Source: Taxillus chinensis (Eukaryota; Streptophyta; Magnoliopsida; Santalales; Loranthaceae). Taken from it: a DNA stretch of 64,000 nt. Of this stretch, positions 6,736 to 9,106 are shown in pieces. Positions within the stretch are counted from its first letter, which is position 1; the number at the start of each line of letters is the position of its first letter. The notes below the pieces were generated by a model. It saw nothing but the letters and a program-made list of their open reading frames with translations. It did no database searches and had not been told where the DNA came from. A program made the position numbers and the translations under genes. The stretch spans positions 25,149,783-25,213,782 of the forward strand of contig CM042090.1 in the NCBI GenBank assembly GCA_023512835.1. The letters run 5' to 3'.

Positions 6736-7054
6736 TTAAAGATCTACGCGAAAATAGTGCACATATAGCATAAACCATCTAAACATTAACTACAAATCAA
6801 ATTCAAAGCCATGGCCCATGAGCATGTTGTCATGCCCCGAACATCGTGGTGGCGGCAAGCGTCTCCCAAGTAACGCAGGTGTGCGCTACTTGCGGAGTGG
6901 CAAGGCAGAAAGCGTAACTGGTGCGCACAAGATAGGTTCCATTGCAGTTCATGCGGGAGATTGATGGAGCCCCTTTGAAGTTCAGACGTACCAACACGGT
7001 TCAATGCAGGGAGTACGCTGCTAGTCTTGGACCTAACGATAAATAGGGGACTTG

Positions 7055-7456
7055 TGTCACGACCAAAGGATTCAGTACGTTTCCAGTAGCACGATTCAGG
7101 AATGCATTCGTGCTACTTAAAGGAAAGGGGTTGGTTGAAGCATAAATGGTGCGCAGCGGAAGGTTCCAGGCAGTTCGTGGAGGAGAACGGATGGAACCTT
7201 TTCGGAGTTCAGACGTGCCGACCCGGTTGAATGCGGGGAGCACGCCGCTAGTCGAGGACTTGACGTTGAAGAAGGGATTTGGTCATCCTTACAAAAACTG
7301 GTCGGGAACTGGAGCCGTTCTCTTGATGAGCCCAGTGGCAGGGCGAAACCAGTTTACGTGCACTCCAACCCTCAAAGGCCAAACTTAGCGGACCGTGGAT
7401 AGAGAAGCTAAGTGTCACAATGGGTTGAGAGACGCAGGAAACCTGACCCCGTGACA
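7055..7456 (+). repeat. 5' LTR of inner retrozyme
   Basis: 402-bp LTR bounded by TGTCAC and GTGACA, followed two bases later by the primer binding site. Contains the hammerhead motif at 7295-7355. Confidence 0.88.
7295..7355 (+). ncRNA. Type III hammerhead ribozyme motif, C3 mutated (inner 5' LTR)
   Basis: Stem III is AAACTGGT (7295-7302) with ACCAGTTT (7348-7355), 8 perfect pairs. The cleavage triplet GTC ends at 7303. Stem I is GGGAAC with GTTCTC around a 7-base loop. The core reads TTGATGA instead of CTGATGA. Stem II is GCCC/GGGC with loop AGTGGCA, followed by GAAAC. Everything fits a type III hammerhead except C3 changed to T, a position known to be essential for cleavage, so this copy is probably inactive. 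Confidence 0.85.
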
Positions 7457-7458
7457 AG

Positions 7459-7470
7459 TGGTATCAGAGC
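7459..7470 (+). other. Primer binding site (initiator tRNA-Met), inner retrozyme
   Basis: TGGTATCAGAGC, the standard plant LTR-retrotransposon primer site complementary to the 3' end of initiator tRNA-Met, two bases after the 5' LTR. Confidence 0.92.
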
Positions 7471-7851
7471 CGAACCGGCCCGTATCCTGAAGACTCACCG
7501 AGCACTTTCGCGAGTAGCGTGATCCCAAGGTGGGAGCTCACAGAGGTGAGTCGACCGGTAGTGTCTTGCACGCCTCGCGTCCATAGAGTTGGAGTATCGT
7601 AGAGTGTGACACAGAGTTGGGCAAGGGAGTACGAAAGAGCGTGTCGGAGCGATCTTGGAAGCCTCCTATCCGTTGGACATTGGGCGAGCAGGAGAGTATC
7701 TTGGTAAAGGTGTTGCAGCCAGCGGGGAAGCGATGTTCAACCAATTGACATTGGATGAGTGGGAGGGCGTCGAGGTAAAGATGTCATCGCATGCTGGGAA
7801 GCGTTGTCAACAAATGCAACGAGGACGTTGCAAGGATTGGGTGGAGGAGAA

Positions 7852-8254
7852 TGTCACGACTCGAGGATTCGGGACGTTTTTCAGTGGCACAATTCAGGAA
7901 TGCATTCGTGCTACTTAAAGGAAAAGGGTTGGTTGAAGCGTAGATGGTGCGCAGCGGAAGGTTCCAGGCAATTCGTGGAGGAGAATGGATGGAACCCCTT
8001 CGGATTTCAGACGTGCTAACCCGGTTGAATGCATGGAGCACGCCGCTAGTCGAGGACTTGACGTTGAAGAAGGGATTTGGCCATCCTTACACAAACTGGT
8101 CGGGAACTAGAGCCGTTCTCTTGATGAGCCCAGTGGCAGGGCGAAACCAGTCTACATGCGCTCCAATCCTCAAAGGCTAAACTTAGTGGACCGTGGATAG
8201 AGAAGCTAAGTGGCGCAATGGGTTGAGAGGCGCAGGAAACCTGACCTCGTGACA
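7852..8254 (+). repeat. 3' LTR of inner retrozyme
   Basis: 403-bp LTR preceded by a polypurine tract and followed by the CTTG target duplication. Contains the hammerhead motif at 8093-8153. Confidence 0.88.
8093..8153 (+). ncRNA. Type III hammerhead ribozyme motif, C3 mutated (inner 3' LTR)
   Basis: Same architecture as the 5' LTR copy: AAACTGGT, GTC cleavage site ending at 8101, TTGATGA, GCCC/GGGC stem II, CGAAAC, then ACCAGTCT. Stem III has one mismatch. The shared TTGATGA core shows the C3 change was present in the template that gave rise to both LTRs. Confidence 0.83.
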
Positions 8255-8271
8255 CTTGGCCATTCCTATAC

Positions 8272-8331
8272 AAACTAGTTGGAAACTGGAGCCGTTCTTT
8301 TAATGAGCCCAAGGTAGCGCGAAACCAATTT
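8272..8331 (+). ncRNA. Decayed hammerhead motif (outer 5' LTR, distal part)
   Basis: Recognisable by position and by AAACTAGT, GCCC and CGAAACCAATTT. The cleavage triplet is GTT and the core reads TTAATGA. Predicted inactive remnant. Confidence 0.7.
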
Positions 8332-8419
8332 ACGTGTGCCCCTATCGGTATGACTTACTTGGAGTATCCACCAAGGTGACCGAGTGTCGCATGAGTGAAA
8401 ACCTAACCCCGTGACAAAG

Positions 8420-8431
8420 TGATATCAGAGC
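8420..8431 (+). other. Primer binding site, outer retrozyme (one mismatch)
   Basis: TGATATCAGAGC, one change from the perfect tRNA-Met primer site, three bases after the end of the outer 5' LTR. Confidence 0.85.
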
Positions 8432-8719
8432 AATTGCGGCTCATTTCCAAGAAAGCTCATCGAAGCACTTTCGCGAGAGATGTGTGGTCCCTGATCCCAC
8501 GTTGGGAGGGAGCCCCTAACAGATGAGGGTCGACTAGGTGAAGGTCTTGCATAGCGCACACTTCGTGTTTACTAAGTTGTTGGCCGCTGAGCCAAGGTGG
8601 AGTACCCGAGGATAGGATAGAGTGGCGCTGCAGGAGTCGAAAGTAGTGCGTCGAATGATCTTGATTCCTCCGAACCCGTTAGACACAACGAGGACGTTAC
8701 AAAATCAAGTAAGAGAGGA

Positions 8720-9106
8720 TGTCATGCCCCGAATAAGGTGGTGGTAGCGGGCGCCTCCCAAGTGACACAGGTGCGCACTACTTTGTGAAGGGGCAAGGCA
8801 AAAAGCGTAATTGGTACGGACAAGATAGGCTCCACGACAATTCGTGCAGGAGATCGATGGAGCCCCTTTAGAGTTCAGACGTACCAACTCGGTTCAATCC
8901 GAGGAGTACGTCGCTAGTCTCGAATATGACGATGAAGAGGGGATTTGGTCATCCATACACAAATTGGTCAGGAATTGAAGTCGTTCTCCTGATGAGCCCA
9001 AAGCATGACGAAACTAATTTACGTATGTACTGATCGGTATGACTTACTCGAACCATTCACCAGGGCGACCGAGTACCACACGGGTGAAAACTCTAACTCC
9101 ATAACA
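8720..9106 (+). repeat. 3' LTR of outer retrozyme
   Basis: 387-bp uninterrupted LTR that serves as the template for recognising the split 5' LTR. It is followed by the ATGT duplication and contains the hammerhead motif at 8961-9020. Confidence 0.85.
8961..9020 (+). ncRNA. Hammerhead ribozyme motif with intact CTGATGA core (outer 3' LTR)
   Basis: Stem III is AAATTGGT/ACTAATTT (8 pairs, one G-U). The GTC cleavage site ends at 8969. Stem I is AGGAAT/GTTCTC (weaker). The core CTGATGA and CGAAAC are both intact. Stem II, GCCC against TGAC, is poorly paired. The catalytic bases are preserved but stem II damage makes activity doubtful. Confidence 0.8.

Follow-up and report, generated by a model that had tools for sequence, protein, structure and literature searches.

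A nested pair of probable retrozymes with altered hammerhead ribozymes in the genome of Taxillus chinensis

The retrozymes of plants, described by Cervera, Urbina and de la Pena in 2016 (PMC4918200), have long terminal repeats (LTRs) of about 300–400 bp that carry a type III hammerhead ribozyme, together with 4-bp target site duplications (TSDs), a tRNA-Met primer-binding site (PBS) and a polypurine tract (PPT). Their non-coding interior is 300–600 bp long and the unit delimited by the hammerheads 600–1000 nt (PMC4918200). Mutated hammerheads are known from citrus retrozymes, many of them in sweet orange (PMC4918200), and four of nine Nicotiana benthamiana retrozymes have substitutions possibly affecting the ribozyme (PMC9695139). 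The N. benthamiana elements fall into Groups 1 and 2, whose similarity is concentrated in the part of the LTR that bears the ribozyme, and as many as 32 mismatches separate the LTRs of a single element (PMC9695139). TRIM and SMART elements are likewise small LTR elements that lack genes and possess a PBS and PPT (PMC4717578, PMC4918200), and PMC4918200 does not describe them with hammerheads.

We analyzed a 64-kb stretch of Taxillus chinensis DNA, referred to here as the window, in which a region at 6828–9106 matches this published retrozyme layout twice over. The inner of the two elements has LTRs of 402 and 403 bp, just above the published range, and the outer has LTRs of 385 and 387 bp; the hammerhead-delimited units, 798 nt and 689 nt respectively, lie within the 600–1000 nt reported for the non-coding unit (PMC4918200). 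The locus differs from those descriptions in that its hammerheads score under the curated cut-off, in that one element is nested in another, and in that the structure of the predicted RNA does not clearly exceed that of shuffled sequence; it shares the gene-less layout with PBS and PPT of TRIM and SMART elements and differs from them, as described in PMC4918200, in having hammerheads. The analysis confirms a real feature of a known kind, more an old fossil than a new system, and the region very probably holds two plant retrozymes of related lineages, the inner of which was inserted later into the 5' LTR of the outer.

Structure of the nested elements

The inner element runs from 7055 to 8254, and its LTRs align end to end with 369 of 402 positions identical (91.8%) and one gap column. 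The outer LTRs are 78% identical, and the 5' copy is in two pieces, the left matching the 3' LTR at 184 of 227 positions and the right at 117 of 158, with one gap column in each alignment (Table 1). Separate alignment of each half with the 3' LTR places 7054 on 8947, and 8256 on 8945, hence 8259 on 8948, so that the two halves abut; the point of insertion follows base 227 of the outer 5' LTR and lies upstream of the outer hammerhead. All four bases of each TSD are the same in both of its copies. The original prediction, which was staked beforehand on an end-to-end alignment of both LTR pairs, is upheld on this point and in its anatomy at large: the boundaries (6828–9106), the sizes of LTRs and interiors, the LTR starts, the ATGT (outer) and CTTG (inner) duplications, and an inner element within the outer 5' LTR, whose halves rejoin exactly.

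Table 1. Features of the two nested elements, in order of position in the window.
Feature	Position	Strand	Basis
Outer TSD ATGT, left copy	6824–6827	.	Identical to 9107–9110
Outer 5' LTR, left half; ends CTTG, the inner target site	6828–7054	+	Alignment with 8720–8947
Inner TSD CTTG, left copy	7051–7054	.	Identical to 8255–8258
Inner 5' LTR, TGTCACGAC...CGTGACA	7055–7456	+	Alignment with 7852–8254
Type III hammerhead, inner 5' LTR; core UUGAUGA (C3 to U); predicted cleavage after 7303	7295–7355	+	RF00008, 31.0 bits; fold
Inner interior, 395 bp, without coding signal	7457–7851	+	ORF listing
Inner PBS TGGTATCAGAGC	7459–7470	+	12/12 to plant Cassandra PBS (PMC7215508)
Inner purine tract before 3' LTR, 13 nt, one T; extent approximate	7839–7851	+	
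Inner 3' LTR	7852–8254	+	Alignment with 7055–7456
Type III hammerhead, inner 3' LTR; core UUGAUGA; predicted cleavage after 8101	8093–8153	+	RF00008, 28.9 bits; fold
Inner TSD CTTG, right copy	8255–8258	.	Identical to 7051–7054
Outer 5' LTR, right half	8259–8416	+	Alignment with 8948–9106
Hammerhead relic, outer 5' LTR; core UUAAUGA	8272–8331	+	Homology by alignment
Outer interior, 303 bp	8417–8719	+	LTR boundaries
Outer PBS TGATATCAGAGC	8420–8431	+	11/12 to plant Cassandra PBS (PMC7215508)
Outer purine tract before 3' LTR, 13 nt, one T; extent approximate	8707–8719	+	
Outer 3' LTR, TGTCATGCCCCG...CATAACA	8720–9106	+	Alignment with both 5' halves
Type III hammerhead, outer 3' LTR; core CUGAUGA intact, stem II weakened	8961–9020	+	RF00008, 24.3 bits
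Outer TSD ATGT, right copy	9107–9110	.	Identical to 6824–6827

A primer site follows the 5' LTR closely in each element, as AG-TGGTATCAGAGC in the inner and AAG-TGATATCAGAGC in the outer, and the 12-mer TGGTATCAGAGC is one that we take to be the complement of tRNA-Met. The same 12-mer is the PBS reported for plant Cassandra elements (PMC7215508), to which the inner site is identical and the outer matches at 11 of 12 positions; with 12 purines among the 13 bases of each tract before the 3' LTR, the tRNA-Met primer site and purine tract that had been proposed are present in both elements.

Neither interior shows a coding signal, and the longest open reading frame (ORF) overlapping the elements on either strand has 88 aa. 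ORFs of 80 aa and 78 aa do pass through the equivalent place of the two inner LTRs (7146–7388 and 7944–8180), and in NbRZ1 an ORF for a 19-kDa RZprot is reported across the ribozyme (PMC12029980). Differences counted by position modulo 3 number 17, 10 and 19 between the inner 5' and outer 3' LTRs, 16, 13 and 18 between the inner 3' and outer 3' LTRs, and 12, 9 and 12 within the inner pair; judged by eye, no codon position stands out. The outer copies have stops in the matching frame, and the 80-aa ORF, used as a query for homologues, gave two candidates, none at E 0.001. We regard a protein-coding reading of the inner LTRs as unlikely.

Within the inner interior, a unit of about 70 bp is duplicated in tandem and has diverged (7676–7745 and 7747–7815; 71% identity, E 0.002).

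Hammerheads in the four LTRs

The core rule of the hammerhead is CUGAUGA, in which C3 pairs with G8 in standard numbering. The original prediction placed hammerheads in the LTRs and looked to a type III covariance model for matches above threshold. The second expectation fails: the gathering score of Rfam RF00008 (hammerhead type III) is 48.5 bits, the best match here has 31.0 bits, and at the curated cut-off there are no hammerheads in the 64-kb window. The first stands in part, since hammerheads are recognizable in three of the four LTRs, the inner pair folding as such, and the outer 5' LTR holds a relic that gives no RF00008 match at E values up to 10. The matches of 31.0, 28.9 and 24.3 bits at a homologous place in the LTRs, taken with the inner folds, rescue the identification and indicate that the ribozymes are altered.

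The outer 3' hammerhead was detected in a search of 2331 bases (E 0.034). The inner ones are absent from the output of that search despite their higher scores and were seen in shorter stretches under laxer filters, with E-values of 1.7e-5 for 91 bases (5' LTR) and 1.9e-4 for 268 bases (3' LTR), which flatter the matches because these short stretches were chosen by eye for suspected hammerheads. The 91-base search also returned two chance matches, toga_FSE and mir-1825 (one lower-scoring overlap of the same clan is omitted).

In the inner 5' LTR the minimum-energy fold is a complete hammerhead (−19.6 kcal/mol) with all three stems fully paired, of 8 (stem III), 6 (stem I) and 4 (stem II) pairs; that of the inner 3' copy is also a hammerhead (−18.5 kcal/mol), in which stem III has 6 pairs. 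In the outer 3' copy only two of the four stem II pairs remain and an A·C stands at the base of stem I, and the minimum-energy fold is not a hammerhead; nor is the fold of the outer 5' relic, in which the hammerhead core is lost. Natural hammerheads with a very weak stem II exist (PMC3088659), so that the outer 3' hammerhead is not certainly dead.

A structural descriptor (stem I of at least 4 pairs, stem II of at least 3, stem III of at least 4, and at most one core mismatch) matches both strands of the 64-kb window only at 7323 and 8121, both in the inner element; on the + strand, 2000 dinucleotide-shuffled versions of the 2279-nt element yield no match. It misses both outer hammerheads, with zero core mismatches it finds nothing in the window, and the bare core (NTGATGA, 6–30 nt, GAAA) occurs at nine places in the window, three of them in these elements; the description of the LTRs as hammerhead-carrying is therefore clear for the inner element and partial for the outer. 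Covariation in the four-copy alignment amounts to one compensatory pair, with 371 of 500 shuffles equally high, and is uninformative either way.

Two lineages and the inner core change

The inner LTRs differ at 33 of 402 positions and the outer at 84 of 385 (Fisher p 7e-8; K2P distances of 0.088 and 0.27), which makes the inner element the younger, as the nesting demands and in keeping with the prediction that one lineage is younger than the other. Dated with plant substitution rates (per site and year) of 7e-9 and 1.3e-8, the inner element would be roughly 3.4–6.3 and the outer 10.5–19.5 million years old. The proposal that the two families are related but distinct is likewise borne out. The LTR middle is common to both (inner bases 84–305 against the outer 3' LTR, 174 of 220 identical, with 0 of 500 shuffles as good), as are 17 of the 18 last LTR bases and the start of the interior including the primer site. 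Further inside, the interiors match faintly over about 56 columns. Both LTRs start TGTCA, but their first 83 bases align no better than expected by chance, 390 of 500 shuffles doing as well.

Compared by description only, Groups 1 and 2 of N. benthamiana (PMC9695139) likewise provide two groups in one genome; the present pair differs in that its interiors, outside the primer-site region, keep the faint match of about 56 nt and in that one group lies within an LTR of the other. The best reading is of two related retrozyme lineages, both old, with the inner a later arrival. The locus offers a clear example of a retrozyme of one lineage inserted into one of another, and so places two lineages of one plant genome in order. 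A keyword search of the open part of PubMed Central found no nested retrozymes, and we make no claim that they are unpublished.

Short LTRs with a PBS and PPT and no genes are also the layout of ordinary TRIM and SMART elements, in which LTRs are usually shorter, and such elements could contain a hammerhead-like stretch by chance; the lack of any hammerhead above the curated cut-off and the commonness of the bare core, with six of its nine places in the window outside the elements, would both agree with this. Against it, the whole type III architecture is found in both inner LTRs and in 0 of 2000 shuffles, homologous stretches occupy the equivalent place in the outer LTRs, one of them with an intact core, and the LTR lengths of 385–403 bp are near the 300–400 bp published for retrozymes (PMC4918200). 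The inner LTRs are not the ribozyme-free ones of a TRIM or SMART element, hammerhead folds being present in both inner copies, and we regard a chance resemblance as very improbable. The four hammerhead places in series on one strand could alternatively represent a tandem retrozyme produced by rolling-circle copying or unequal recombination, and both tandem hammerhead copies and tandem retrozymes have been published (PMC4918200, PMC9695139). The inner unit, however, has its own CTTG duplication and breaks the outer LTR at a single point with the halves abutting, and the units belong to different families whose LTR starts past TGTCA match only at chance level (390/500 shuffles), so that a tandem origin is scarcely credible.

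Both copies of the inner ribozyme have U for C3, with G8 unchanged. The chance of a given C changing independently in both inner LTRs is about 0.0037 (a rough value from the observed transitions), and at some 0.4% such a double change is improbable enough that U3 was probably already present when the element inserted; a U is found here in the outer 5' copy too, along with other changes, so that core site 3 may be one that changes readily. Perhaps, then, a poor ribozyme was already in place when the inner element was copied. More tentatively, and on balance somewhat against the odds, its lineage could have been copied and integrated with the U3·G8 wobble already in the master copy, in which case either the wobble core still cuts or retrozymes move without self-cleavage. 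A wobble core that cuts in the plant would be a natural core variant, one that the literature consulted does not mention, and movement without working self-cleavage would run contrary to what the circular-template model leads one to expect. The narrower proposal, that the wobble core of the inner family still cuts well enough and that its variant ribozyme was functional at the time of transposition, we consider unlikely. It would fit the presence of U3 in both inner LTRs, probably from the time of insertion, the full pairing of all three stems in the inner 5' copy, and the existence of natural core variants, some of them active, including U3 paired with A8 in several hammerheads (PMC3088659). 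This compensation is absent here, however, G8 being unchanged; in a Penelope-like element either C3G or G8C alone is enough to abolish cleavage, and catalytic mutants of that element were without effect on insertion (PMC11167929); the U in the outer 5' copy again suggests a site that may be change-prone; and the inner LTRs are already 8% different. Given the substitutions in published ribozymes of N. benthamiana and sweet orange retrozymes, an altered ribozyme in a retrozyme is no new kind of observation; for C3U itself, a keyword search of the open part of PubMed Central found no report in hammerhead ribozymes. Common to both inner LTRs, the C3U change leads to a testable question: does retrozyme transposition need hammerhead cleavage?

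Proposed cycle and surrounding sequence

In the history that we propose, the outer retrozyme would have inserted first, at ATGT, and a member of the related lineage would then have inserted at CTTG in the outer 5' LTR. By the published cycle (PMC4918200), each element would once have been transcribed from its LTR and the RNA cut at the two hammerheads to yield a monomer of 798 nt (inner) or 689 nt (outer), which would have been closed into a circle, copied into DNA from the tRNA-Met primer by the enzymes of a Ty3-gypsy partner, and integrated with a 4-bp duplication. The footprints of these events are present in the DNA as LTR pairs, TSDs, primer site, purine tract, hammerhead homology and the order of insertion; transcription, the circular RNA and the Ty3-gypsy helper are steps supposed by analogy. 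Both copies are presumably now inert or nearly so, and circular RNA from them is doubtful. The outer unit from hammerhead to hammerhead (8281–8969) is uninterrupted, since the inner insertion lies upstream of the outer hammerhead. In NbRZ1 transcription starts at LTR base 116 (PMC12029980), and with a similar start in the outer element the insertion would lie between its promoter and its ribozyme.

The predicted circles are 66% (inner) and 64% (outer) paired, with z-scores of −0.91 and −1.50 against 60 shuffles each; their stability exceeds that of the shuffles by no more than 0.9 and 1.5 standard deviations, which lends no support to an unusual RNA structure. Self-pairing above 70% is given in a passage mainly about metazoan RNAs (PMC4918200). 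A scan for bacterial-type promoters and terminators found no more than in shuffles. No further copies of the elements were found in the 64-kb window at E 0.01, and there were no matches to an exact 36-base pattern in genome_contigs or to a gapped pattern in viral_contigs, both of them ill suited to finding relatives of a plant element.

The window looks like plant nuclear DNA: among 10 of its 25 ORFs (at least 120 aa) scanned against Pfam, five match, including NPH3 and DUF568 with cytochrome b561. Two DUF568 ORFs, at 46033–47259 (−) and 56855–57625 (+), lie on opposite strands about 10 kb apart and are perhaps duplicated genes. Diverged inverted repeats at 10645–10940 and 13657–13957, with three matches of 65–77 nt that are 76–88% complementary and 2.7–3.2 kb apart, are perhaps the ends of a DNA transposon. 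Two A+T-rich pieces whose order is conserved between 17892–18063 and 63430–63613, 73% and 77% alike, are perhaps two copies of one small repeat. At 49185–49820 a 279-base run that is 99% G is followed by 49 bases mostly of A and later by 110 G and 38 bases mostly of G, with A-rich sequence between; G runs of this length are unusual and may stem from faulty sequencing or assembly. The sole tRNA gene in the window by both ARAGORN and Rfam is a tRNA-Leu (CAG) at 45715–45795.
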